The notes under the pieces: generated by a model
What the model was told of the DNA's origin: nothing
The model's input: the letters and a program-made list of their open reading frames with translations, nothing else
Database searches by the model: none
Shown: positions 3,216 to 33,318 of the stretch, piece by piece
Numbering within the stretch: the stretch's first letter is position 1
Layout of the letters: each line of letters opens with the position of its first letter
Made by a program: the position numbers and the translations under genes
DNA from: a virus
DNA length: 33,318 bases
IMG/VR virus record: IMGVR_UViG_3300037156_000203
Location: 1 to 33,318 of that record
Direction: 5' to 3' (one strand)

Positions 3216-3566
3216 ATGGCCGTCAATGTCCTCACCTCGTCGCTTGGCGATCTCGGCAAGTTCCTCACGTCGGCCACCACCGATCCCAATGCGCCCGCCT
3301 CGGTCAAGACCGCTCTGGCGGATGTCACCACCGCCGTTCATTCCGTTGAGGCCGCCCTGGGCGACGCCATTGATCTGCTGGTCGACACCGAGATCAATGC
3401 CCTGATCTCCAGCATTCCAGGCCTCAACCTGGCGCAGTCCGAGATCGACGCTCTGGCCAACAGCATCGTGTCCGCCGTTCTGGCGCTCGTCTATCCGAAG
3501 CTCGGCATGGCATTACCGGCGGCCGACCCCGGTGTGACGGCGGCCATGTCCAACGCCCAACCCTAG
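3216..3566 (+). CDS. Hypothetical helical protein, 116 aa
   Basis: Unknown function. ATG 3216 follows AGGAGACCATC. Residues ~25-100 form long amphipathic helices with regular Leu/Ile/Val/Ala spacing (SVEAALGDAIDLLVDTEINA; SEIDALANSIVSAVLALVYP). No signal peptide and no clean transmembrane segment. It is arranged in series with 3576-3881, whose leader is almost identical (CCTAGGAGACC), and both have the same length range and helical character, so the two may be distant duplicates or partners. Position next to the putative holin leaves a membrane-associated role open. Confidence 0.65.
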   Translation: MAVNVLTSSLGDLGKFLTSATTDPNAPASVKTALADVTTAVHSVEAALGDAIDLLVDTEINALISSIPGLNLAQSEIDALANSIVSAVLALVYPKLGMALPAADPGVTAAMSNAQP

Positions 3567-3575
3567 GAGACCGAC

Positions 3576-3881
3576 ATGCCCATCATCTCGTCCATTGGAA
3601 CCGTGCTCGGATTTCTCGGCGAAGCTGTCCACTACGGCCCCGCGGTGCTGACCTTCATCCACTCCACCGTCACGGCGGTCGAGGCCACCGGCAAGTCCGG
3701 CGCCGACAAGCTGACCGCCGTGCTCAACGCGGTGGGTGTGTTCGCATCGGCGATCCTGCCTTCGGAGGCCGCGGTCATCCAGTCGTTCATGACCGCCGTC
3801 GAGGCCCTGGTCAACGATCTGGTGGCCCTGTGGAACGAAGCCGGCGTGTTCCTGCACGGCCCGGCCCCCGTCGCGGCCTAG
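3576..3881 (+). CDS. Hypothetical hydrophobic helical protein, 101 aa
   Basis: Unknown function. ATG 3576 is preceded by CCTAGGAGACCGAC, the same leader as the gene before it. The N-terminus (IGTVLGFLGEAVHYGPAVLTF) and the middle (AVLNAVGVFASAILP) are hydrophobic, with few charges, so association with a membrane is possible although no segment is a textbook transmembrane helix. The C-terminal helix (SFMTAVEALVNDLVALWNE) is amphipathic. It lies in a set of very small genes with 9-10 base gaps, expressed as one unit. Confidence 0.65.
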   Translation: MPIISSIGTVLGFLGEAVHYGPAVLTFIHSTVTAVEATGKSGADKLTAVLNAVGVFASAILPSEAAVIQSFMTAVEALVNDLVALWNEAGVFLHGPAPVAA

Positions 3882-3891
3882 GGAGATTCCC

Positions 3892-4014
3892 ATGAAGAAA
3901 GAAACCTCCAAGCATCCCAAGCCGAAGGCGGCCATGGGCATGTCGAAGGAAAAGCCCAAGATGCCACCCAAGCCCCCGGCGCCGTCGAAGGGCACGAAGG
4001 GCCGCAAGAAGTGA
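3892..4014 (+). CDS. Lys/Pro-rich basic peptide, 40 aa
   Basis: A short gene starting at ATG 3892 behind GGGAGATTCCC. The product is about one third lysine, with prolines and a terminal KGRKK, and has no hydrophobic core; it is probably disordered and could bind nucleic acid or a negatively charged surface. Its last codons overlap the alternative GTG start (4011) of the KTSC gene. The good ribosome-binding site and the fit between neighbours are the grounds for calling it; no homologue can be named. Confidence 0.55.
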   Translation: MKKETSKHPKPKAAMGMSKEKPKMPPKPPAPSKGTKGRKK

Positions 4015-4016
4015 CC

Positions 4017-4232
4017 ATGGTCACCGAGACCTTCGTCTTCCGCAATTCGTCTAATTTGCTGGACGCAACCTACGATCCGGACGTCGAGAACCTGACGATC
4101 ACCTTCTCGGACGGGTCGCAGTACGAATACTACAATGTGCCGGCCTCGGTGTACCGCGCCCTGACGCAGGCCTCGTCGGCCGGGCAATACTGGAACCGGC
4201 AGAAGGGCTCCTACTCCTACGAGAAGCTGTGA
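4017..4232 (+). CDS. KTSC domain-containing protein
   Basis: A 71-residue protein consisting of one KTSC domain, a small beta-rich fold frequent in phage genomes and of uncertain function. The diagnostic parts are [20 protein letters not shown] near the N-terminus, [21 protein letters not shown] in the middle, and the closing GSYSYEKL. The start is either ATG 4017 or GTG 4011, the latter overlapping the upstream stop (GTGA); both are in frame and differ by two residues. The stop overlaps the next start as TGATG. Confidence 0.8.
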
Positions 4233-4363: not shown

Positions 4364-4623
4364 TGGCGGACAACGTATCCGCTTTCCCCGGACTGGGCCT
4401 CCCCCTGGATCACATCGAGGTCCAAGCTGAACTTGTGGAGCGGCTGGAAGGCCTCCTAGAAGAGGCGCGTAGTGGGCAACTACTGGCTCTCGCCTATGCC
4501 GGGGTAGCGCGCAACGAAATGATAAAGACCTCCTGGGCCGGAGACGTTCAGCGGTCCATGATTGGCTACGCCATCGCCAAGCTACAGCATGAGTATTTCA
4601 GCGCCGTCACCGAGAATGACTGA
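4363..4623 (+). CDS. Hypothetical protein, 86 aa, upstream of terminase
   Basis: Starts at ATG 4363 in a TGATG overlap and ends eight bases inside terL. The sequence (VERLEGLLEEARSGQLLALAYAGV ... TSWAGDV) resembles a small family often found in phages, with a two-helix start, a strand and a conserved tryptophan-glycine turn. Its place directly before the large terminase would suit a small terminase subunit, but there is no helix-turn-helix and the length is short, so I do not assign that role. Function unknown. Confidence 0.6.
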   Translation: MADNVSAFPGLGLPLDHIEVQAELVERLEGLLEEARSGQLLALAYAGVARNEMIKTSWAGDVQRSMIGYAIAKLQHEYFSAVTEND

Positions 4624-6664
4624 TCTGACGCCCCTCCAGCAGACCCAGGTCAAGCTGGGCCTCGATCGGCCCCTGGCCCATGCGGTGCTGTTCGCTCACC
4701 GCCGGCCGAACAAGACCCCAGCCTTCCACCGCGAATTGATCCTGGACTGGCATGATCCGGCTAGCTCTTATCTTGACTTAGTTTTTCGGGGGGGAGCGAA
4801 AAGTACTCTTGCGGAAGAGGCCATCGTCATCAAGGCCCTCAATCGGGAGTTTAAGAACTGCCTGATCGTCGGCGCCGACTTCGATAGAGCGGCCGCCCGT
4901 CTCCACGCGATCCGCATGGAGTTCGAGAACAACGAAATGATCCGACAGATCTACGGCGATCTGATCGGCTTCCCCTGGGGTGAGGACCGACTGGTCACGT
5001 CCACCGGCATCAATATCCAGGCTCTCGGCCGTGGCCAGTCCCTGCGCGGGATCAAGTTCCTGGACACCCGGCCGGACCTGTTGTTCGCCGACGATCTGGA
5101 GGACTACGCCGACGTCATCAAGCCCGAGGGACGAAAGAAGATCCACGACTGGTTCGACGGCGAGCTGCTGCCTTCCCTTGAACCGGGGTACATGGCTCGA
5201 ATGGCGGCGACGCCGCTGCACCCCGAAGCCCTGCCCTACCACGTCATGCAGGACCCCTCCTGGAAGGTCCACCGGTTCCCTATCAAGTACCGCGACGAGA
5301 CCACCGGCGAGTGGCAGTCCTCCTGGCCCGATCGGTTCCCGCTGACCGAGGCCCAGGCCACTATCCTTCGCCGCACCAATCCCAAGGTCGAGAGCATCGA
5401 GAAGATCGAGGGCGGCCTGGTCAGGAAGGGCCAGATCCACCTGTTCCAGTGCGAGTACATGTGCCAGGCCGAGTCGCCCGAGACCAAGGCCTTCAAGGCC
5501 GAGATGTTCCGCGTCGAGCCCCAGGTCCGCTCCTATCAGGCCGTCTATTCGATGCTCGATCCCGCTCGTACCGTGGGCGCCAAGTCGGCCACCACCGGCG
5601 CGGCGGTGTGGTCATGGACCAAGGGCAAGCTCATCATCTGGGACGGTTGGGCCAAGAAGATGATGCCCGACGAGATCGTCACGTCGCTGTTCGCCACCCA
5701 CGACGAGCACCACCCGGTCTGGATGGGGTTCGAGGAAGACGGCCTCAACCAGTGGGGCCTGCAGCCGATCCGCCAGGAGATGGCCCGCCGCGGCCAGGCC
5801 CTACCCCTGAAGGCCGTCCGCGCCCCGCCGGGCAAGTTCGACTTCATCCGCGGGCTGCAGCCCTTCTTCCACGCCCGCGAAGTGATCTTCGCCAAGGAAC
5901 TGCCCGAGCTCAAGCAACAGCTCCTGGGCTTCCCGACCGGGGAGATCGACGCCCCGAACGCCCTGGCCTACTGCCTTAAAATGCGCCCCGGCGCGCCCAT
6001 CTACGCTGATTTTGGAGGACGTCATGTCGCCGAAGATATCGAGCCGCTACAGGGCCGTCCTGTTTGGCTCTGCCTCAATGCCACCCGAAGCGCGGTATCC
6101 GGATGCGCGGTACAAGTCCTTGATGGTGCGATCCGCGTGTACGCGGATGCTGTCCGAGAAGGCGACCCCGCCCAGGTCCTCCCCGGCCTGATCTCGGACA
6201 TGCAGGCCGATCTTGGCCGCGAGCTTCGGCTGACCGCCGGCCCGCTGCACTACGACCGCTACAACAACGTCGGCCTGGTCGCCGCCGCGGCCAAGCTGCC
6301 GATGCGCGTCACCCCTGGCCTGCCGCCGGAGCGTGGCCGGGCCCGCATCGTCGACATGCTCCAGCGCGAGAAGTCGTCGATGCCGATGCTGATGGTGTCG
6401 TCGCGGGCCCTATGGACCCTGAACGCCTTCACCGGCGGCTATAGCCGCGTGCTCCTGAAGCAGGGCCAGTTGGCCGACTATGCCGAGGAAGGCGCCTACC
6501 GCACGCTGATGGAGGGCCTAGAGAGCTATATTGGCTTGATGGAACTCGGTTCGACAGATGAGCTAGGACAAGCTAGGCTGAACGCTCTGAGCCCCAACGG
6601 ACGCCCTTATAGGTCGATTATCGACTCTTCGTCGGCGCCGCTCCCGAGCAAGGATAACTGGTAG
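4616..6664 (+). CDS. terL: Terminase large subunit
   Basis: The DNA-packaging motor: ATPase that pumps DNA through the portal, plus a nuclease that cuts concatemers. 682 residues, usual for the family. Walker A-type FRGGAKST is at residues 57-64, the coupling-region sequence RGQSLRG near 140, and Walker B with catalytic acidics (LLFADDLED) at about 155-163. An RNase H-like nuclease core follows, with a candidate metal-binding Asp315 (SMLDPAR) and FEEDG near 380. I start at ATG 4616 rather than 4562 because this gives the usual short overlap with the previous gene and avoids a non-protein-like N-terminus. It is followed two bases later by the portal gene. A second reading frame is open inside it at 6024-6191. 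Confidence 0.9.
   Translation: MTDLTPLQQTQVKLGLDRPLAHAVLFAHRRPNKTPAFHRELILDWHDPASSYLDLVFRGGAKSTLAEEAIVIKALNREFKNCLIVGADFDRAAARLHAIRMEFENNEMIRQIYGDLIGFPWGEDRLVTSTGINIQALGRGQSLRGIKFLDTRPDLLFADDLEDYADVIKPEGRKKIHDWFDGELLPSLEPGYMARMAATPLHPEALPYHVMQDPSWKVHRFPIKYRDETTGEWQSSWPDRFPLTEAQATILRRTNPKVESIEKIEGGLVRKGQIHLFQCEYMCQAESPETKAFKAEMFRVEPQVRSYQAVYSMLDPARTVGAKSATTGAAVWSWTKGKLIIWDGWAKKMMPDEIVTSLFATHDEHHPVWMGFEEDGLNQWGLQPIRQEMARRGQALPLKAVRAPPGKFDFIRGLQPFFHAREVIFAKELPELKQQLLGFPTGEIDAPNALAYCLKMRPGAPIYADFGGRHVAEDIEPLQGRPVWLCLNATRSAVSGCAVQVLDGAIRVYADAVREGDPAQVLPGLISDMQADLGRELRLTAGPLHYDRYNNVGLVAAAAKLPMRVTPGLPPERGRARIVDMLQREKSSMPMLMVSSRALWTLNAFTGGYSRVLLKQGQLADYAEEGAYRTLMEGLESYIGLMELGSTDELGQARLNALSPNGRPYRSIIDSSSAPLPSKDNW
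6024..6191 (+). CDS. Candidate overprinted 55-aa ORF inside terL
   Basis: ATG 6024 is out of frame with terL (+1) and is preceded by GGAGGACGTC, a near-perfect ribosome-binding site at ideal spacing. The 55-residue product (MSPKISSRYRAVLF...) is basic, with no known domain. By hand count about 44 of 54 codons end in G or C, against about 36 of 55 in the terL frame over the same bases, where codons such as GGA, CGA, GTA, CTA and CTT cluster. That reversal is what overprinting produces. It may still be chance; no function is proposed. Confidence 0.35.
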   Translation: MSPKISSRYRAVLFGSASMPPEARYPDARYKSLMVRSACTRMLSEKATPPRSSPA

Positions 6665-6666
6665 CC

Positions 6667-8784
6667 GTGGCTGACGAACCGGAAGAGATCGATGACGACG
6701 AGCCTGAAGACCCGGTAGCCGGCAAGCGGTCTGCTGAGTTGGCCACGACCGAGAAGGTCAAGGCGAAGCTCGCCGATCTCTACAACGACGTGTCCAAGGG
6801 CTACGAGAACCAGCGTGGCCGCACCGACGACATCCTCGACAATTGGGACCTGTACAACTGCCAGCTTGGCGAGAAGCAGTTCTACTCAGGCAACTCCAAA
6901 ATCTTCATCCCGTTCGTCAAGGACGCGGTCGACGCGCGGGTGACCCGCTTCGTCAACCAGATGTTTCCCAACAACGGGCGCTACGTCGAGATCACCACCG
7001 GTGAAGGCGACCCGCCCTATGCGACCCAGGCTCTGATCGAGGGCTACATCCGCAACTGCCGGATGCGGACGCGGGTGATGCCGGCGCTGATGCGCAACGG
7101 CGACGTCGAGGGGCAGTACACGATCTATGTGTCCTGGAAGGACACCAAGCGCGCCGCGATGTACCGGGTCAAGAAACAGCCCATGACGGACGGCCTGCCC
7201 AACGAAGCCGCCGATCCGGTCGATGACGTCGAAGAGGAAGTCATCGTCGACTCCAACCCCGATGTGGAGATCATCAGCGACGCCGATCTACTGGTGCTGC
7301 CGGTAACCGTCGACAGCATCGAGGAAGCACTGGACGTCGGCGGGTCCGTCACCGTCATGCGCCGCTGGACCAAAGGCAAGATCAAGGCCCTGATCGCGGC
7401 CAAGGAGATCGACGAGGAGGCCGGCGAAGACCTGATCGAGGCGATGTCCGCGATCAAGAACGAAGACAAGGTCGATACGTCCAAGCAGCAGGCCGACGCC
7501 GCGGGGATCAAGAAGCAGGGCAAGGAAGCCCTGGTCTACGAGACCTGGCACATGATGAAGGTCGGCGACGATATCCGCCTGTGCCGTATCTTCTTCGGAG
7601 GCGAGGACCGCATCTTGTCGTGCCGGCGCAACCCTTACTGGAACGACCGTTGCCCGGTCCTGTCGGCGCCGGTGGACAAGATCGCCGGAGTGTTCAAGGG
7701 CCGAGCGCCGGTCAGCGACGTGGCCGATCTGCAGATATTCGCCAACGACACCATCAACGAGGGAGCCGACACCGCCCACTTCTCGGCTATGCCGATCATC
7801 ATGTCCGATCCGCTGAAGAACCCGCGCGTCGACACCATGATCTTGTCTCTGGGGGCCCTATGGGAGACCAGCCCGAACGACACCAAGATCGTTGAGTTCC
7901 CCGAGCTGTGGCGTTCGGCCCTGGAGAGGGCGGGCGCGATCAAGGAGCAGATTTTCCAGACCCTGGGCGTCAACCCGGCCATGGTCCCGCAGCAGACCGG
8001 CGGCGCCAAGAAGCGCAACCAGGCCGAGATGGCCAACGAGCAGCAGGTCGATATTCTGACCACCGCCGACGCGGTGACCAACGTCGAGCAGGAAATCCTG
8101 ACACCGGTCGCCCAGCGGTTCGTCGAGTACGATCACCAGTTCCGCGATGAAGAGATCACCATACGCGTCTATGGCGAGCCGGGGATGCGCGCCAACATGG
8201 AGCAGGTCGAGCCGATCCAGCTCAACAAGCGGTTCGATATCAAGTGGTACGGGGTTCAGTCCGCGCGCAACGCCGCCCAGATGCAGCAGAAGATCGCCTG
8301 GGTAAACGTGGTGATGAAGCTGCCGCCGACCGCCTACCCCGACTACACCTTGGACCTGGCGCCGATGATCGTCGAAGGCACCGAGGATCTGTTCGGGGCC
8401 AAGCTCGGGCCGCAAATCTTCAAGCGCAAGAGCATCATCAGCGTCGATCCGCACATCGAAGATCAGATGATGGAGCACGGCTTCCGCACCGCGGTCCATC
8501 CGGCCGACGACGATATGGTCCATATACAGGACCACATCGCCGCCGTTCAGCAGGACGGTGATCCGCACGGGACCTTCCGCGAGCACATCGAGCTTCACCA
8601 GCACCAGATGCAGGACAAGGCCGCAGCGGCGGCCAAGACCCAGCAGCCTAGCGGTGGAGGGGGCGGTGGCCCGCCGGCCGGCGCCATGCCGACCATGCCG
8701 CGCCAAGGCAAAGGCCCGCCAGGAGGGATCAGACCCGATTCGATGCCTGCGGCGGGCGCCGTGACGATGCCGAGGAAAATGTAG
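6667..8784 (+). CDS. Portal protein
   Basis: Forms the dodecameric ring at the capsid vertex through which terminase loads DNA and to which the tail attaches. 705 residues starting at GTG 6667, two bases after terL; an acidic N-terminus (DEPEEIDDDEPEDP) precedes the core. The region YENQRGRTDDILDNWDLYNC ... FIPFVKDAVDARVTRFVNQMF is typical of podoviral portals, and the central ATLAFSAMP-equivalent helix-wing part lies around residues 340-470. The last ~70 residues are a Gln/Gly/Pro/Met-rich, probably disordered extension. Assignment rests on these patterns and on position between TerL and the scaffold/capsid genes. Confidence 0.85.
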   Translation: MADEPEEIDDDEPEDPVAGKRSAELATTEKVKAKLADLYNDVSKGYENQRGRTDDILDNWDLYNCQLGEKQFYSGNSKIFIPFVKDAVDARVTRFVNQMFPNNGRYVEITTGEGDPPYATQALIEGYIRNCRMRTRVMPALMRNGDVEGQYTIYVSWKDTKRAAMYRVKKQPMTDGLPNEAADPVDDVEEEVIVDSNPDVEIISDADLLVLPVTVDSIEEALDVGGSVTVMRRWTKGKIKALIAAKEIDEEAGEDLIEAMSAIKNEDKVDTSKQQADAAGIKKQGKEALVYETWHMMKVGDDIRLCRIFFGGEDRILSCRRNPYWNDRCPVLSAPVDKIAGVFKGRAPVSDVADLQIFANDTINEGADTAHFSAMPIIMSDPLKNPRVDTMILSLGALWETSPNDTKIVEFPELWRSALERAGAIKEQIFQTLGVNPAMVPQQTGGAKKRNQAEMANEQQVDILTTADAVTNVEQEILTPVAQRFVEYDHQFRDEEITIRVYGEPGMRANMEQVEPIQLNKRFDIKWYGVQSARNAAQMQQKIAWVNVVMKLPPTAYPDYTLDLAPMIVEGTEDLFGAKLGPQIFKRKSIISVDPHIEDQMMEHGFRTAVHPADDDMVHIQDHIAAVQQDGDPHGTFREHIELHQHQMQDKAAAAAKTQQPSGGGGGGPPAGAMPTMPRQGKGPPGGIRPDSMPAAGAVTMPRKM

Positions 8785-9856: not shown

Positions 9857-11203
9857 ATGGCCGTCAACCAGTCCAGTCAGTTCCAAGCTGACATCGAAGG
9901 CTATATCGCCGACAAGACGCTCCCTCTGGCGCGTCGTCAGCTTGTCGCCTTCCAGTTCGCAGACAAGTCCGAGGGCATCCCCAAGGGTCGCGGCGTCACC
10001 TACACCGCCACGCGCTACCAGCGCCTGCCGCTGCCCTTCGCGCCGCTCTCCGAGGGCGTGCCGCCGAGCGGCGAGACCATGACCATCCAGCAGGTCACGG
10101 CCACCGCGCTCCAGTGGGGCGACAAGGTGACGATCACCGACGTCGCCGAGATGACCATCAAGCACCCGCTGTTCAAGAAGGCGACCGAACTGGTCGCCCT
10201 GCAGCTCTCCGAAACCCTGGAGCGCAACACCTTCCTCGCCCTGATGGGCGGCACGCAGGTCAACTACGTCAACAGCCGCGGCTCCCGCTTCGCCCTGGCC
10301 GCCGGTGACGTGCTGGACGGCCAGACCGTCATCCGCACCGACATGGCTCTCGAAACCCTCGGCGCTCAGCGCTTTATGGGCGACGAGATGACCGACACCA
10401 AGATCGACGCCGGCAAGCCGGCCAAGGCCTCCGACAACCCGCGCTCGATGCCCCACTACGTCGCCATCTGCCACCATGCGGTGGTCGCCGACTTCCGCCA
10501 GCAGTCCGACGTGAAGCTGGCCTGGACCTACTCGGATCTGAACCGCCTCTACAACTACGAGGCCGGCGAGTGGTCGGGCATCCGCTTCTGCAAGTCGAAC
10601 ATGGTTCCGTCGTTCACCGGCGTCGCCCTGATTACCGGCACCGCCGGCACCGCCGGGGCCCTGGCCACCAGCGCCACCTACAACATCATCATCACGGCGT
10701 CCGACACGCAGAACCAGTACGAGAGCCGCGTCTATCAGGTCTCGGGCAACATCAGCGTGACCGGCCCGAACGGCTCGATCTCCGTGGTTCTTCCCGCCCT
10801 GGTCGGCTTCACCTTCAACGCCTACATCGGCACCACCAGCACGCCGAACCAACTGGCGCTCTCGGCCTCCGGACCTACGACCGGCCCGATGCTTGGGCAG
10901 GCGGTGCAGATGGCTCCGGGCCAGACGGTGATCCTGACCGGCCTCGGCCTGGCCCAGGTTCCCCCGGCGCCGGCCGCCACCGGCCTGACCGTGTACCCGA
11001 CCTTCATCATCGGTCGCGGCGCCTACGCCCAGGTCGAACTGGACAACGTCAAGTTCACCTATCTGAAGGACGCCGATAAGAGTGACCCGTTGAATCAATT
11101 AAGAATTGTAGGATGGAAAGCGTTCTATGGAACGCTCTTGAGTAATGTCATGTTCATGGCAAGAATTGAGAGCGTCAGTGCATACTCAACTTCCTTCGGA
11201 TAA
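9857..11203 (+). CDS. Major capsid protein (N4-gp56 family-like)
   Basis: Builds the icosahedral head. 448 residues, ATG 9857. The N-terminal DKTLPLARRQLVAFQFADK and AKQ-like GDKVTITDVAEMTIKHP segments, then ITDV/ELVALQLSETLERN, and the closing DPLNQLRIVGWKAFYG ... FMARIES match the N4-gp56 capsid family as I know it. Residues ~250-370 are a Gly/Thr/Ala-rich beta insertion (TGTAGTAGALATSATYN ...) that is probably a surface decoration. The last ~40 codons, from about 11085, change abruptly from GC-ending to AT-ending codons while keeping conserved residues, right beside the endonuclease gene at 11212. Start hidden in a hairpin (9829-9853). Confidence 0.85.
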   Translation: MAVNQSSQFQADIEGYIADKTLPLARRQLVAFQFADKSEGIPKGRGVTYTATRYQRLPLPFAPLSEGVPPSGETMTIQQVTATALQWGDKVTITDVAEMTIKHPLFKKATELVALQLSETLERNTFLALMGGTQVNYVNSRGSRFALAAGDVLDGQTVIRTDMALETLGAQRFMGDEMTDTKIDAGKPAKASDNPRSMPHYVAICHHAVVADFRQQSDVKLAWTYSDLNRLYNYEAGEWSGIRFCKSNMVPSFTGVALITGTAGTAGALATSATYNIIITASDTQNQYESRVYQVSGNISVTGPNGSISVVLPALVGFTFNAYIGTTSTPNQLALSASGPTTGPMLGQAVQMAPGQTVILTGLGLAQVPPAPAATGLTVYPTFIIGRGAYAQVELDNVKFTYLKDADKSDPLNQLRIVGWKAFYGTLLSNVMFMARIESVSAYSTSFG

Positions 11204-28030: not shown

Positions 28031-28398
28031 CGGAACGCATCCGCCAGCCGCGCGAGAAACGGCTTCCTGGGGACCTTCTCGCCGATGGCTCCGATCTGGT
28101 GGGCCCAGCCGTTGATCTCGGCTGAGTGGAAGGTCTGCTGCCCACAGACCAGCCGCACGGGCTTGCTAGCGGCGAAGACCCGGCAACCGGCGCCGGTGAA
28201 GTCGATCACGCTGGGGATCGGTCCGTAGGGCAGAGGGATCACGGCGAAATAGTCAGGCAGGTCCAGCACGTCGCAAGGCGTGGAGAAGGTGAACTTGCCC
28301 TGGATGGACGCCGCGTGGATAGGCTCCGCATCGATCAGCCAAGACGGTACGTCGTCGCCGATCTGAAAGCGGGTGCGGGTGATGGTTTCCTCGATCAC
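28027..28398 (-). CDS. Hypothetical protein, 123 aa
   Basis: Starts at GTG 28398, overlapping the primase stop as GTGA; a longer in-frame reading lies entirely within the primase gene and has Arg-rich out-of-frame composition, so I reject it. A strand-rich sequence (FQIGDDVPSWLIDAEPIHAA; LPDYFAVIPLPYGPIPSVID; AASKPVRLVCGQQTFHSAEI) that reads as a compact beta protein. Coupled to the primase upstream and the ribbon-helix-helix gene downstream, each by four-base overlap, hence part of the replication operon. Function not recognised. Confidence 0.7.
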   Translation of the reverse strand: MIEETITRTRFQIGDDVPSWLIDAEPIHAASIQGKFTFSTPCDVLDLPDYFAVIPLPYGPIPSVIDFTGAGCRVFAASKPVRLVCGQQTFHSAEINGWAHQIGAIGEKVPRKPFLARLADAFR

Positions 28399-30296
28399 AG
28401 CGTGATCTCCTTCCGACAGATGAGAGTGTCGCCCATGTGCGGGGCGACGGCGATCAGTCCAAGGCCCTCTGCATGGGCCTGGGCTTCGGTGAAGTAGCGG
28501 CGGCGATTGCGGGCGTCGGCCACGCCGCTGCGAATCTTGAACTGTTCCTTGACGGCTTCCAAATCGACCATCGGCACGCCGTTCACGTCGACGGTCTCCA
28601 CGTCGTCGGCGATGATGCAGTCGTCGATGCACTCCAGGAACAGCCCGGCGTGCTTGACCTTCTTCTCCCTGGTCGCCGCGGCGATGTCGCCGGTGGAGAT
28701 GGCCATGCTGGTGACGGGCCGGTCCTTGTCGTCGCGGCCGATCTCCACTTCCACCAGGGAGAAGGTCCCCAGCTTCCGCTCGGCGGCGTTGCGGGCCTTG
28801 GTCAGCGATATCTCGCGGACCTGGGCCTTCTGGTAACGGGTGATCTCCAGGACATAGTCGCTGTTGGACGGCAGGGCTTCGGCGCCGCGCGTACCTTCGC
28901 CGTGCTTAGGCGGGTGGTGCGTGGTCACGAACAGTACGCCCAACGCCCGACCGATCGTCGTCAGGTTCTCCACGGCCTGGGCGACCACGGCGTTGTCGTT
29001 CTCGTTGTCGATCAGCCCCGACGCCGACAGCGTCTCCAGGAACACCACGCGCAGCTGCACGCCGAACTTCTGGAGCATGTAGACCTGCTGGTCCTGCAGA
29101 TCGGCCAGGAGCGCGTCCAGGGCCCCGCGCTGCCGCAGTCCGGAGACCTGGGTGTAGGCCACCGGGACGGTCTCGGTTTCCTGCATGGCGGCGATGCGGT
29201 GAGCGAAGCCCGAGCCTTCGGTCCCGGCGAACAGGACGATGGACGCCCCTCGTTCTTCCGGATCGACACCGAAGAACGGCTTGCCCAGCCCCAGACAGCG
29301 CACCAGATGGGCGATGACGAAGGTCTTGCCTGCCCCGGTGGTGCCCACCAACACCGCGAAACCCGTGGCCGGCAGCAGCTTATGGAACAGCCAGTTCTGG
29401 TTGAGATGCAGTTCGTCGTCGGGATAGTGCCACTTGCGGCCGGCGCGGGGCGGCGGCTCGATCTTGACGTCCTTGAAGCCGAGTTCAGGCGACTCGATGC
29501 CCGGTGGACGCTGGCCATAGGCGTAGGCGTTGCGGACCTTCGTCTCCAACTCTTCCAGGGACCAGGGCGGGCTGCAGCGGTCGTTCCAATCGCCGGACAT
29601 CAACTCCCAGGCGGTAAACTCCGACAACCCGAAGTCCTTCAGGGTGCAGGCGACCTGATAAGCGGTCTGGTCGCCGCCGGCGCCTTCTATCGAGAGGGGT
29701 GCCTCCAGAAGGAAAGCTTCCGCCCGAGCCACCGCCGCAGGCGCGTCCAGCGGGACGGCTGGTATTGATACCCGGTCAGCATCCGATAGTTGTCGAGTTC
29801 CTTCTGCCGCCTTAAGGCTTCCGATAAGTCCTGCATCCGCTTCAGCGATTCCGGCGTTGCGCCGGATAGCATAATCTTGTCCCCCCACTGTTGAGCCCGG
29901 TCCGAGGACGTAACCGTGGTCTGATCGGACGTCCAATCCCGGCCCCAGGAGCCCAACAGAATTTCGGGCGCTTGCTCCTTTGAAATACTCATGGACCCCT
30001 CCCGAGGGCGTGTTGACGATGAAGGTGTCGTGCTGGATATCCAGGGCCTTCAGCGAGGCCAGGCCTTGCTTGCCGCCCTTGACGTCGGCGTCCAGAACGA
30101 TGTGACCGGCACAGTGGACGCCGATGTTGGCCTGCGGCCACTTCGCCCACCAGGCCTCGATGACCTTGGGATCCGTGGAAGCGCGGTTGGGCCAGTCGTC
30201 GATCAACGGCGGGAACTTGGCGCCTTCCTTGATCGGAAAGACACCGAGGCCGCGGCCCGCCATCTGCAGCGCCCATTGAAGCTTGTCCCCCGACAT
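28395..30296 (-). CDS. Primase-polymerase / RepA-like ATPase fusion
   Basis: 633 residues from ATG 30296 (AGGGG upstream). Residues ~1-190 are a bifunctional primase-polymerase (Prim-Pol) domain: the metal-binding pair in IVLDADVKGG (Asp69, Asp71), His102 in PSGGVHEYF, and LDVRSDHGYVLGPGST. Residues ~285-520 are a RecA/AAA-type ATPase with Walker A GTTGAGKT (318-325), hydrophobic strand VVFLETL as Walker B, and VLFVTTHHPPKHGEGTRGAEAL. The C-terminal part looks like a DNA-binding tail. Makes primers and probably unwinds DNA at the fork with the polymerase next door. Codon use is anomalous over residues ~102-203, where another frame is open (29687-29992). Confidence 0.85.
   Translation of the reverse strand: MSGDKLQWALQMAGRGLGVFPIKEGAKFPPLIDDWPNRASTDPKVIEAWWAKWPQANIGVHCAGHIVLDADVKGGKQGLASLKALDIQHDTFIVNTPSGGVHEYFKGASARNSVGLLGPGLDVRSDHGYVLGPGSTVGGQDYAIRRNAGIAEADAGLIGSLKAAEGTRQLSDADRVSIPAVPLDAPAAVARAEAFLLEAPLSIEGAGGDQTAYQVACTLKDFGLSEFTAWELMSGDWNDRCSPPWSLEELETKVRNAYAYGQRPPGIESPELGFKDVKIEPPPRAGRKWHYPDDELHLNQNWLFHKLLPATGFAVLVGTTGAGKTFVIAHLVRCLGLGKPFFGVDPEERGASIVLFAGTEGSGFAHRIAAMQETETVPVAYTQVSGLRQRGALDALLADLQDQQVYMLQKFGVQLRVVFLETLSASGLIDNENDNAVVAQAVENLTTIGRALGVLFVTTHHPPKHGEGTRGAEALPSNSDYVLEITRYQKAQVREISLTKARNAAERKLGTFSLVEVEIGRDDKDRPVTSMAISTGDIAAATREKKVKHAGLFLECIDDCIIADDVETVDVNGVPMVDLEAVKEQFKIRSGVADARNRRRYFTEAQAHAEGLGLIAVAPHMGDTLICRKEITL
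29687..29992 (-). CDS. Candidate overprinted 101-aa gene inside the primase gene
   Basis: Out of frame within the primase coding region. ATG 29992 has GGGAGGGGTCC just upstream, one of the best ribosome-binding sites in the window. The product is protein-like: MSISKEQAPEILLGSWGRDW, then GDKIMLSGATPESLKRMQDL, helix RRQKELDNYRMLTGYQYQPS, then a basic Trp/Arg tail (RWTRLRRWLGRKLSFWRH). By hand count roughly 75 of 100 codons end in G or C here, against ~52 of 100 in the primase frame over the same bases, while the primase elsewhere is far higher. That local reversal is the mark of overprinting. Function unknown; the basic amphipathic tail could bind nucleic acid or membrane. Confidence 0.5.
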   Translation of the reverse strand: MSISKEQAPEILLGSWGRDWTSDQTTVTSSDRAQQWGDKIMLSGATPESLKRMQDLSEALRRQKELDNYRMLTGYQYQPSRWTRLRRWLGRKLSFWRHPSR

Positions 30297-30305
30297 GGCG
30301 GACCC

Positions 30306-30572
30306 CTAGACGTTGCGCGACAGGCAGTAGGTCCGCTTCACTCGGCCCGGCACAACACGTTGCCCGTGGGCCTTCAGCCGACGATTGAGCCGGATGATGT
30401 AGGAACTGATCCAGCTCTGGGCGTAGTGACGGGTGCCGGGATCGGTGTCGTTGGCCCGCTCGGGATCGCCGCCGACCGCCAGATAGATGTCCACGAACGA
30501 CACGTCGCCGTTGCGCGCCAGCAGATCGTACAGAGTCTGCTGGATCGGGGTGAGCTTGAGGTCACTTGTCAT
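30306..30572 (-). CDS. Small winged-helix-like DNA-binding protein
   Basis: 88 residues, ATG 30572, overlapping the end of the polymerase gene by 11 bases. Helices LTPIQQTLYDLLARNGDVSF, VDIYLAVGG and SWISSYIIRLNRRLKAHGQR are followed by strand VVPGRVKRTYCLSR, the layout of winged helix-turn-helix domains (recognition helix near SYIIRLNRRL). It sits between polymerase and primase, so a role in initiation or regulation of phage replication is plausible. I see no ligand-binding domain. Could be the protein that reads the iteron-like repeats; no direct evidence. Confidence 0.6.
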   Translation of the reverse strand: MTSDLKLTPIQQTLYDLLARNGDVSFVDIYLAVGGDPERANDTDPGTRHYAQSWISSYIIRLNRRLKAHGQRVVPGRVKRTYCLSRNV

Positions 30573-33318
30573 ATCTAGGGCCTTCCCAGGCGGTGGCGGC
30601 GATAGGGACTTCGGCCAGCCACCGTGGCTTTTGTTTCAGCGTGTTCAGATAGTGCTCGACAGACCCGAAGCCATTGCGTACCTCGGACAGGGCTTCGTCG
30701 TGGATCGTCAGGACCGTGGGGTAGCCTTCGTGCTCCAGACGGAACATGGCGGCCACCAGGACGTCCCTGGCGGTCCCTGAGACGACGTGAGCGCACTGCA
30801 TCCCGCCATAAAGGTCAAGTTCACGCCAGCCTTTGTGCTCGCCCCAGTAGGACACGGTCCAGCGGTTGAACTCGACGTCGTCACCGTCGATCTTGATGGT
30901 CTTGGATTTCCACTTCAGCGACGGCGCGCAGTAGGAGATCACCCTGCCGGATGGCAGCTTGCAATAGAGGAAGGCCTTCGATCGGTCGCAGGTGTATTGG
31001 ACCTTGCCGTCGAGGGCCGAGACGATGCATCCCGGCGCACCCATGGCCTCGATCGCGGCGTCCTGAAGCTCTCGCCAGGAGGCGACGATCCGGGGGTTGG
31101 TGTCGCGCCATGCGCCGACGATCTGCCGGATGCGCTCGTCGGACAGCCGCACGCCGTACTTGGCGCCCATCTTCTTGAAGGCCCCAAGCGCCCCCTGGTA
31201 ACCGCAGTTGTGGACGATCATCGGGCCTTCTCTGCCCCAGACCATGAACCTGTTACGCGGCCCCGCATGAGCAATGTCGTAAACGATGTTCGAGTTCGTC
31301 GATCCGTCTTTGCATATCGAGGACTTTTCGACGATTTCCCTGGTTCGTCTTATGAGATACGAACCTAAGATTTCCAGGTTGGTAGCCCTCGTTGACTCGC
31401 TCTCTGTCCAGTTCCAGGCTTGGGTTGTCCCAGCCTTCCAGAGTGACGATGTACGAGAGGAAACCTCGGCGATTGCGTCGCCAAGGCTCATGGACTTCAA
31501 TTCCCCGAGCGCCGTAGTTATGGTACCCGCTGTCATTGGAGTTGTGGCACCGGTTAATACAGGCACTGATACGACCGAGAAGACGTCGTCTGTGCGCATC
31601 ATCGGCGACAATGTCTTGGTACGCCCAGTACTTTTTTCTTGTGGCTCCAGCCTTCTTGACCGCGCACTTATTGCAGCTAGTCGACGCACCTGACCGAAGA
31701 CTGGATACAAAGACTCCATATATTCGATCTTCGCTACAGTCGCAGCATACCAATACGGCCCTAAGCCCGCCTTTAGGCCCGATATTGTACCCATGGACGG
31801 TAAGCTGGCCAAACCTGTCGCCGATGTTAGGCCGAGGAAGGATGGGCTGGAGACGACCGTCTGAGCCTCTTTCCAGGTTTCTCCGTCCACCAGCAACAGA
31901 TGGTCTGGCGTCATCTCCACGCCATTCACCCAGATGATCTCCCGCAGCCCCATGGCCACGGTACCTTTGTGCTCTACCCATTCTTCCCCGTCCCACAGCC
32001 GATCAAAGATTCCTAGCTCCTTGATAGGCACAAGTCCACGATCTGTAAACACCAGGGTTTCAGGGCCGACGCAAGCGAGTTCAGGAACTTTTCCTTGTTC
32101 CTGCCGCTGGGCCTTGGACACGGCGTCCGTAGGGATGCCGATGATGTTGCCGGCCGTGACCTTGTAGAGATCAGGACCCAGGCCAGCGTCGAAGTTGCGG
32201 AAGGCCTGCAGCTTCCATTGCTCGCCCGCGAGCCAAGCGTTCAGCCGGCCTTCGATGTTGGAGAAGTCCCCGCCCATCAGACGGTGGCCATCCTCGGCGA
32301 TGATCGCGGCTCGCGTGCAAAGGGACAGAACCTCCAGCGGCGCGTCGAACATGAACTCCATCCAGTCGACGACTTCAGCGACACTGGCCGGGCTGTTGAG
32401 CATGGCTACGGTCATCCGCACCCACTCGGCTTCTTCGTCGGTGTCGACCCGCTTCATGTTGTGGAACTGGACGCCGCGACCGACCCAACGGCCCTGCACG
32501 GTTCCGTGGAAGCCAAGGGAGTCGTAGACCCGCCCGTCCTTGCACAGACAGGCCAGCATGGCGGGGAACTTGAAGGCCTTGGCTGATGCCGCCCGCAGGT
32601 GGATGACCTTCTCGACGTCGGGACGGTCAAAGAAGTCCGCCGTGACAATCAGGCCTTCGTGCTCGCCTTCGGCGATGCTCTCGCAGTGGACGCCCTGACT
32701 GTTGATCCAGTCGACGATCTTGGCGACCTCGGTGCATTTCTTGGCGGCGCCGTTGGTCAGCCGCCACATCTCACGGTCGGCGCGCTTAGTGGCCTCTGTG
32801 ACGACGGCCATGGCCTTGCGGATCATCGGCTCGTCGAGACGGATGCCACGGTCATTGATGCGTTGGTCCAGTTCCCAGACGCGGCGCTCGCGCTCGGAAA
32901 GCTGGGGGACCAGTTGGTCTATGGCGTGCTCGGTGGCGACGTCCTGGTCGCAGTAGGCCTGCAGCCGGGAGAGACGGTCTTCGTCCTCCCACCATGTGAT
33001 GTTGCCTTTGTCATCGATCGACCGGGGCAAGCACATCTGCATCATCAGACGGTAGCCCTCCTTGTCCTTCTGGACGTTGGCGCGGACCGCCGGGCCCATG
33101 TTGTCCAGGGAGGCGGGCAGGCCCATCACCCGACCGCGGGCCTGCGTACAGTGCTGCTGCTCGATCTTCAGCGGAGGGAGGGTTTCGTCGACCTGGCGCG
33201 TCAGGGTTTCGTTCCACATGCCGCGCTCGAAAGCCGCGTTGTGGTGAACCATCGGACCGCCATCGGCGACGTGCTCGATCAGATCCTGTGGGAAGGGCTC
33301 GCCTTTACGCCAGCGACG
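30562..33318 (-). CDS. DNA polymerase, family A, with intein (partial at right edge)
   Basis: Main replicative polymerase. Reading frame extends past 33318, so the N-terminus is missing; HVADGGPMVHHNAAFERG near the edge is the Exo II motif of a 3'-5' exonuclease domain. Palm motif A is GGDFSNIEGR (Asp codon 32266-32268), motif C is TIHDEALSEV near the C-terminus, and fingers motif B (O-helix) is split: QGKVPELA lies before, and CGYQGALGAFKKMGAKYG after, an intein at 31207-32073. Removing the intein restores an unbroken O-helix. The frame is open throughout, so a full precursor is predicted. Followed by two coupled genes of the same operon. Confidence 0.92.
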   Translation of the reverse strand, partial: RRWRKGEPFPQDLIEHVADGGPMVHHNAAFERGMWNETLTRQVDETLPPLKIEQQHCTQARGRVMGLPASLDNMGPAVRANVQKDKEGYRLMMQMCLPRSIDDKGNITWWEDEDRLSRLQAYCDQDVATEHAIDQLVPQLSERERRVWELDQRINDRGIRLDEPMIRKAMAVVTEATKRADREMWRLTNGAAKKCTEVAKIVDWINSQGVHCESIAEGEHEGLIVTADFFDRPDVEKVIHLRAASAKAFKFPAMLACLCKDGRVYDSLGFHGTVQGRWVGRGVQFHNMKRVDTDEEAEWVRMTVAMLNSPASVAEVVDWMEFMFDAPLEVLSLCTRAAIIAEDGHRLMGGDFSNIEGRLNAWLAGEQWKLQAFRNFDAGLGPDLYKVTAGNIIGIPTDAVSKAQRQEQGKVPELACVGPETLVFTDRGLVPIKELGIFDRLWDGEEWVEHKGTVAMGLREIIWVNGVEMTPDHLLLVDGETWKEAQTVVSSPSFLGLTSATGLASLPSMGTISGLKAGLGPYWYAATVAKIEYMESLYPVFGQVRRLAAISARSRRLEPQEKSTGRTKTLSPMMRTDDVFSVVSVPVLTGATTPMTAGTITTALGELKSMSLGDAIAEVSSRTSSLWKAGTTQAWNWTESESTRATNLEILGSYLIRRTREIVEKSSICKDGSTNSNIVYDIAHAGPRNRFMVWGREGPMIVHNCGYQGALGAFKKMGAKYGVRLSDERIRQIVGAWRDTNPRIVASWRELQDAAIEAMGAPGCIVSALDGKVQYTCDRSKAFLYCKLPSGRVISYCAPSLKWKSKTIKIDGDDVEFNRWTVSYWGEHKGWRELDLYGGMQCAHVVSGTARDVLVAAMFRLEHEGYPTVLTIHDEALSEVRNGFGSVEHYLNTLKQKPRWLAEVPIAATAWEGPRYDK
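31207..32073 (-). other. Intein in DNA polymerase motif B (289 codons)
   Basis: A self-splicing protein segment. Starts at Cys (32071-32073) with block A CVGPETLVFTDRGLVPIKEL; block B is GVEMTPDHLLLV (residues 51-62, with T55 and H58); block F is VYDIAHAGPRNRFMV, and block G ends IVHN, followed by Cys+1. All splicing residues (Cys1, TxxH, penultimate His, terminal Asn, Cys+1) are present, so it is probably active. Between blocks B and F there is no in-frame endonuclease domain: residues ~75-260 are Ser/Thr-rich and look like an out-of-frame translation, because an HNH gene is written there in another frame (31253-31981). Base composition is more AT-rich than the polymerase. Confidence 0.9.
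31253..31981 (-). CDS. HNH homing endonuclease nested out of frame inside the intein
   Basis: ATG 31981 with GGGACGGGGAAGA just upstream; GTG 31996 is also possible. The first ~50 residues are a by-product of reading block A-B DNA in another frame; the endonuclease begins near 31834 with IGDRFGQLTVHGY, then CCDCSEDRIYG and SLRSGASTSCNKC (zinc-type Cys pairs), ACINRCHNSNDSGYHNYGAR, GIEVHEPWRR, SLELDRERVNEGYQPGNLRF and KTNQGNRRK. This is the phage HNH homing endonuclease type with NYG-(G/A)RGI and LDR-N-YxPxN-RW motifs. Ends within block F. It is the mobility function that normally lies in frame between intein blocks. Confidence 0.8.
   Translation of the reverse strand: MGRAQRYRGHGAAGDHLGEWRGDDARPSVAGGRRNLERGSDGRLQPILPRPNIGDRFGQLTVHGYNIGPKGGLRAVLVCCDCSEDRIYGVFVSSLRSGASTSCNKCAVKKAGATRKKYWAYQDIVADDAHRRRLLGRISACINRCHNSNDSGYHNYGARGIEVHEPWRRNRRGFLSYIVTLEGWDNPSLELDRERVNEGYQPGNLRFVSHKTNQGNRRKVLDMQRRIDELEHRLRHCSCGAA

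Follow-up and report, generated by a model that had tools for sequence, protein, structure and literature searches.

The polA intein and its overlapping gene

The stretch of viral DNA analysed here (positions 1 to 33,318 of IMG/VR record IMGVR_UViG_3300037156_000203, 33,318 nucleotides in all; hereafter the window) carries on its minus strand a family A DNA polymerase gene, polA, into which an intein is inserted, and over this intein lies a second open reading frame (ORF), in a different phase, which encodes a protein of the HNH endonuclease family (Table 1). The polA frame runs without a stop from the contig end to position 30562, and its product matches Pfam DNA_pol_A (E 1e-9) and phrog_17, DNA polymerase (E 9e-64). 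A preliminary description of the window had placed an intein with blocks A, B, F and G at 31207-32073 of the polymerase frame, and this was borne out: the frame is open throughout, and the splicing residues are complete, namely Cys1 (32073), the T-x-x-H of block B, the terminal His-Asn (Asn289 at 31207) and Cys+1. The ends of the intein were set from the pattern Cys1 ... His-Asn|Cys+1 together with alignment with homologous inteins. Counts of invariance given here refer to an alignment of 53 family members, across which C1, T55, H58, H288 and N289 of the intein do not vary. The motifs, a predicted Hint fold and an exact in-frame absence from homologues place the element among the class 1 Hint inteins, and polA is one continuous ORF rather than the two ORFs of a split-intein layout. 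Pfam and NCBIfam hardly recognised either the polA intein product or the nested nuclease product, and a PDB sequence search returned no useful match for intein or nuclease.

From 32002 the nuclease frame stays open as far as 31253, where a TAA falls inside intein block F. If ATG and GTG are considered as starts, a full-length product is possible only from GTG 31996 or ATG 31981, and the next ATG, GTG or TTG in this frame after these two lies only at 31753, deep in the core; ATG 31981 is the start whose position is conserved among relatives (see below). The preliminary description had correctly put an HNH gene in another minus-strand frame, ending in block F, but the extent that it gave, 31253-31834, covers the conserved core only, the gene itself starting at ATG 31981. 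A comparison of the translation with HNH families, which the same description had suggested, gave a match to the HNH endonuclease family phrog_374 (E 3e-31), and PHROGs named HNH endonuclease match 53/53 family members, with E-values down to 7e-47; no Pfam family was matched by the nuclease. The zinc-ribbon cysteines, D192-R193 and N204 are invariant, but an Arg occupies the place of the first His of the canonical HNH motif (D-R, not D-H), so that the 'full HNH motif set' claimed earlier was too strong a wording.

AlphaFold was run on 53 sequences, taken from IMG/VR and GTDB loci only. In the intein model, residues 1-90 and 261-289 have predicted local distance difference test (pLDDT) values of about 97, whilst the middle, residues 101-248, falls below 50, and the nearest PDB folds found with Foldseek are mini-inteins (probability 1.00, best E 1.4e-3). 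The nuclease model has a mean pLDDT of 85.6, with strands at residues 190-193 and 205-208 followed by a helix at 210-215; its N-terminal 35-40 residues, which are those encoded over the Hint domain, are predicted to be disordered. Foldseek matched this model to viral HNH proteins, and its BFVD matches include named HNH endonucleases (E 2e-11 and below).

Table 1. Features of the window, with positions on the 33,318-nucleotide stretch.
Feature	Position	Strand	Remarks
polA, family A DNA polymerase	30562..33318	-	ORF; 5' end truncated by the contig end
Intein	32073..31207	-	289 codons, polA frame; in polymerase motif B (RQEQGKVPELA|CGYQG)
Intein block A (CVGPETLVFTDRGLVPI), Cys1 nucleophile	32023..32073	-	Sequence; invariant in 53 inteins
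Intein block B (NGVEMTPDHLLLV; MTPDH; T55-x-x-H58)	31888..31926	-	Sequence; T55 and H58 invariant in 53 inteins
Host-frame filler, intein residues 101-248	31330..31772	-	Open; pLDDT <50, predicted disordered; substitutions ignore host amino acids
Intein blocks F and G (VYDIAHAGPRNRF ... MIVHN, then Cys+1)	31207..31284	-	D266, H288 and N289 invariant in 53 inteins; pLDDT about 97
Nested HNH endonuclease gene	31253..31981	-	242 codons and TAA; -1 frame relative to polA (offset 2)
Shine-Dalgarno-like GGGGA	31985..31989	-	Ahead of the nested start; host codons for D-G-E-E; only suggestive
Nested start codon ATG	31979..31981	-	Last base of the Glu31 codon and TG of the Trp32 codon (gaA TGg)
Nuclease zinc-ribbon (C-x-C ... 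C-x-x-C; C80, C82, C103, C106)	31664..31744	-	Four Cys invariant in 53 members
Predicted beta-beta-alpha nuclease hairpin (LELDR....GYQPGNLRFV)	31358..31414	-	D192, R193, Y200, P202, N204 and F207 invariant in 53 members
Primase/helicase-like gene	28395-30296	-	Phage context
Terminase large subunit gene	4562-6664	+	Phage context
Portal gene	6667-8784	+	Phage context
Major head protein gene	9857-11203	+	Phage context

Distribution of the arrangement

Relatives sought by tblastn with the window intein and the nested protein lie at the same place in polA, and the nested protein is the better conserved of the two (up to 53.1% identity, against up to 38.9% for the intein); among them are EBPR siphovirus 2, Vibrio phage 97.13, Pseudomonas phage MR14 and more than 140 Salmonella phages. 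The frame offset is the same in the isolates that were read, which include Sodalis phage SO-1, Jerseyvirus phages, coliphages of Dhillonvirus and Kagunavirus and phages of Pseudomonas and Vibrio. A search for related loci with the single window HNH sequence gave no matches and a profile was required; relatives were accordingly fetched with a profile of the nuclease alignment, the best 80 IMG/VR loci and 4 GTDB loci being taken. In 84/84 of these best HNH relatives, on IMG/VR and GTDB contigs, the nuclease is nested within a longer ORF in the same relative frame. With the isolates added, both ends could be set for 95 inteins, among which 79 are distinct, all in polA motif B at a few neighbouring insertion registers, and the offset of the nuclease is 2 in all 79 rather than the shared frame of a canonical intein. 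The preliminary description had proposed to look for the same arrangement in related phages and had implied that it was rare; the same overlap and phase in 79 distinct inteins make it common instead. The dual-coded layout thus seems to be widespread, occurring in dozens of other phages, and to have been overlooked.

Related inteins use registers of polA motif B that are a few codons apart (GKA|CEL in L062, GKVA|CLA in L012 and GKVPELA|CGY in the window), and the register changes at least about six times along the nuclease tree, the site labels being approximate. Streptococcus phage Javan422 and Ruminococcus phage NatCom_23091 have short polA inteins at the same site; Javan422 has lost all but the first part of the nested nuclease frame, apparently through an in-frame deletion that left a true mini-intein. 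In Salmonella phage SS3e, polA is annotated as three genes around the HNH by way of an apparent frame change, probably due to a sequencing error; apart from this the dual-coding intein is a typical one. A Jerseyvirus-like polA intein on a Bacteroidota genome contig (Taishania pollutisoli scaffold 22) is likely to be assembly contamination by phage. In Escherichia phage U1G a related HNH gene (3498-4154) parts two polA ORFs with short overlaps; no split-intein halves are visible in the flanking polA ORFs, which represents another way of breaking polA.

Selection on both reading frames

The number of host-frame stops to be expected was obtained by synonymous shuffling of the nuclease codons. Over the nuclease cores of the 79 inteins, 234.9 such stops were expected and none was observed, and in the third frame 902 were found against 925 expected. 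The same absence holds for 29 representatives below 60% nuclease identity (0 against 77.0 expected), and the window by itself would be expected to have 3.2 host-frame stops (P(0) = 0.008). Over the whole family the absence lies far outside what chance would give. The earlier suggestion that selection has kept the polymerase frame readable is upheld by these counts. For the converse test the host amino acids were held fixed and the host codons resampled: between the start codon and the core the nuclease frame has no stop where 114.8 were expected, whereas it has 137 (85.9 expected) ahead of the start and 44 (35.3 expected) beyond the nuclease stop. Because the stop counts drop to zero only in between, the openness of the nuclease frame runs from its start codon to its stop.

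Substitutions were counted in 17 disjoint pairs of related inteins of this -1 set. Differences at host codon positions 1/2/3 amounted to 184/753/277 in the nuclease core (753 of 1214 at position 2) and to 31/40/116 in blocks F/G, with an intermediate pattern (65/82/120) where the N-terminus of the nuclease overlaps block B. Since host position 2 is nuclease position 3, selection in the core acts on the amino acids of the nuclease and on the host frame only against stops. Frames and selection tests together support the proposal that one segment encodes both a complete intein and a separate endonuclease gene.

Start codon and route of expression

The conserved start of the nuclease lies in the Hint motif W-D-G-x-E-W (W-D-G-E-E-W in the window), where the last base of the codon before Trp32 joins the TG of the Trp codon. 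A start codon stands at this position in 76/79 distinct inteins (56 ATG, 16 GTG and 4 TTG), and the 56 ATG compare with 27.4 expected from the use of codons for the same amino acid in the exteins (z 7.2). A 247-amino-acid protein annotated automatically in Salmonella phage LPSE1, gp39, is the same ORF, and its start, 92 bases into the intein, is at the conserved position; the SETP3 homologue likewise has 247 amino acids.

The nuclease might instead be produced by programmed -1 ribosomal frameshifting in polA, which would fuse it to the N-terminal half of the intein. The phase is indeed -1, and in some members, the window not among them, the open stretch of the nuclease frame begins ahead of the start and can even reach into the N-extein; many others, however, have a nuclease-frame stop immediately ahead of the conserved start (the frame being open only from offset 89-92), and stop avoidance sets in at the start codon rather than at a later slip site. 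Only 9/79 inteins contain an in-phase X-XXY-YYZ heptamer, these heptamers have no consensus in common, and the +1-phase sets described below would require a mechanism of another kind. We therefore regard frameshifting as improbable, and internal initiation would be the route best supported by these patterns.

Independent sets in the +1 phase

A second set of inteins, which includes those of Caulobacter phage KcrB polA and APSE-2 P45, has the HNH gene in the +1 phase, nested in 46/50 IMG/VR loci, with the nuclease start in a G-W-K-x-A motif after block B. Its insertion sites are mostly in polA, at or near C|ENVVQA, and on one contig the +1 nested HNH intein (L007/L145) lies in a terminase large subunit gene (C-extein phrog_2, E 7e-11); the architecture is therefore not confined to polA. 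A third set, also +1, is found at polA motif B of streptococcal prophages (9 loci). No host-frame stop was observed in either set, against 186.5 expected in the second and 114.0 in the third, and substitutions at host positions 1/2/3 were 268/90/76 and 29/10/4, respectively. The peak at host position 1 is what the +1 phase predicts, an independent success of the dual-coding model.

On one contig (IMGVR_UViG_3300034198_010819; L035 and L136), and likewise in L036 and L137, a single polA appears to bear two nested-endonuclease inteins of opposite phase; in the L035/L136 case the -1 intein is at motif B and the +1 intein at C|ENATQA.

Signs of mobility

The polA of Jerseyvirus S101 lacks exactly the 897-base intein of SETP3, and the 50 bases on the N-side of the site are only 70% identical between the two phages, while the rest of the gene is 92-98% identical, a pattern to be expected had the allele with the intein brought its own flank along. 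Many polA homologues align only on either side of the intein. Moreover, nucleases that are 77-80% identical reside in polymerases that are only 28-50% identical (L029/L031, L030/L031 and L090/L098), the extreme being L029/L031 with 77% for the HNH and 28% for the exteins. The empty site with its diverged flank and the gap between nuclease and extein identities both fit homing, but neither is proof of it.

The architecture could also be real and the window nuclease an inactive remnant, with the intein persisting by inheritance only. Homing elements often decay, and the variant catalytic motif (D-R for D-H) would suit such a history, but the window gene is intact over its 242 codons and has all the family-invariant residues, the nuclease frame is under purifying selection across the family, and the D-R motif is itself invariant there; we think it unlikely that the gene is such a remnant. 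The endonuclease probably spreads the intein.

Interpretation

Both frames and their conservation, the selection on nuclease amino acids, the avoidance of host-frame stops, the position of the start, the predicted Hint fold and the exact empty site were all computed here, and they are very probably to be explained by a dual-coding mobile intein, in which a mini-intein and a separately initiated HNH homing endonuclease share one stretch of DNA. In the polymerase frame, two Hint halves (residues 1 to about 91 and 261-289), bridged by about 160 filler residues, would form a mini-intein that excises itself from the polymerase at motif B by splicing. One base back, a 242-amino-acid homing endonuclease of the HNH family would be initiated internally within W-D-G-x-E-W and end in block F; as a free protein it would cut intein-less polA alleles, and repair would copy the entire element in. 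The filler would have no function of its own, but stops would have to be kept out of it if the C-terminal Hint half and the C-extein are to be made. The preliminary description had a free-standing endonuclease gene enter a mini-intein; both parts are present, but the direction of origin goes beyond this evidence.

Several points weigh on the other side. Three of the 79 inteins have other codons at the conserved start position and may start elsewhere, and a Shine-Dalgarno-like stretch ahead of the start is not enriched over what the host amino acids dictate. The activity of the nuclease, which we infer from its family and from the selection on its frame, is not assured given the Arg in place of the first catalytic His, and its model has no significant PDB fold match. 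The stop and substitution counts were drawn from related sequences and so are not independent trials.

Of the two explanations that do without an out-of-frame gene in an intein, a group I intron that encodes the HNH, as in the annotation of Sodalis phage SO-1 gp39, has a very slight claim: the SO-1 record does speak of a 'type I self-splicing intron', and phage group I introns commonly hold HNH genes, but no Rfam group I or II match was obtained up to E 1 in window positions 30500-33318, nor in seven relatives including SO-1, and the host frame has no stop anywhere and encodes intein motifs and a predicted intein fold. That sequencing or assembly frameshifts displaced an ordinary in-frame endonuclease, the objection foreseen in the preliminary description, is scarcely credible even though the nuclease is usually in frame in inteins and single-base errors are common in metagenome contigs, since the phase is identical in all 84 contigs and in independently sequenced isolates, a compensating error would be required every time, and blocks A/B and F/G share one frame in all.

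Beyond the window, we consider it likely, with less assurance than for the dual-coding intein itself, that these elements make up an extensive class of mobile inteins, so far unrecognised, whose homing endonuclease is without exception out of frame. It would exist in two phases, -1 in the polA motif-B set of the window and +1 in the C|ENVVQA polA set, the terminase intein and the streptococcal polA set, and so would have arisen or been reset at least twice. In this class the codons of a conserved Hint motif (W-D-G-x-E-W or G-W-K-x-A) would double as the start of the nuclease, the dosage and folding of the nuclease would be decoupled from splicing, and an essential host gene would be forced to keep a meaningless frame open.

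Significance and comparison with known systems

The usual view of an intein is of an element with a single reading frame, and a 'mini-intein' is taken for one whose nuclease has been lost. On the present reading many seeming polymerase mini-inteins would carry an intact endonuclease gene that is invisible to protein-level annotation and passes under the labels DNA polymerase, hypothetical protein or intron HNH; if this is general, dead inteins would have to be counted anew, and the models of the homing cycle and the annotation pipelines would need revision as well. The arrangement would also provide a clean, conserved case of a long same-strand overlap between a functional frame and one that stays open solely as a carrier. 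How a homing gene may occupy an essential gene without being tied to splicing becomes a question that can be tested, SETP3 and S101 being experimentally tractable relatives. A limited literature search found no report of an out-of-frame endonuclease gene within a splicing intein, although a preprint on actinobacteriophage inteins of non-canonical architecture (10.1101/2025.01.02.630785) could hold related cases.

Canonical bifunctional inteins, with an in-frame LAGLIDADG or HNH domain, resemble the window element in uniting a Hint domain and a homing endonuclease in one element in a conserved gene, but theirs is a single polypeptide with the nuclease in frame. Jerseyvirus Ent1 has both kinds, a canonical intein in its helicase and a polA intein of which only the 'splicing domains' were annotated. 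Split inteins can have a free-standing endonuclease gene between their halves ('fractured genes', reportedly described by Dassa and colleagues in 2009 and cited in PMC10448857), and they then likewise make a splicing domain and a nuclease as separate products of one locus; there the host gene is broken in two, whereas here a continuous ORF is overlapped by the nuclease. Group I introns with an HNH gene, such as that of I-PfoP3I in a cyanophage DNA polymerase (PMC3428280), also place an HNH homing gene with its own translation start in a phage DNA polymerase, but they splice as RNA and the host frame is closed within them, and no intron family was matched here. The closest precedent is the ShiLan domain, together with the Pacc40 gp60 insertion, in which an out-of-frame HNH is hidden inside a methylase insertion (Arsenault, Gosselin and Gogarten 2025, PMC11855218); its authors saw no intein or intron signature and concluded that the insert stays in the methylase. 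It shares with the window an HNH gene in another frame, a host gene left open and a disjunct, homing-like distribution, and differs in that the host frame of the window encodes a full Hint intein with its splicing residues, the start of the nuclease lying within the splicing domain.

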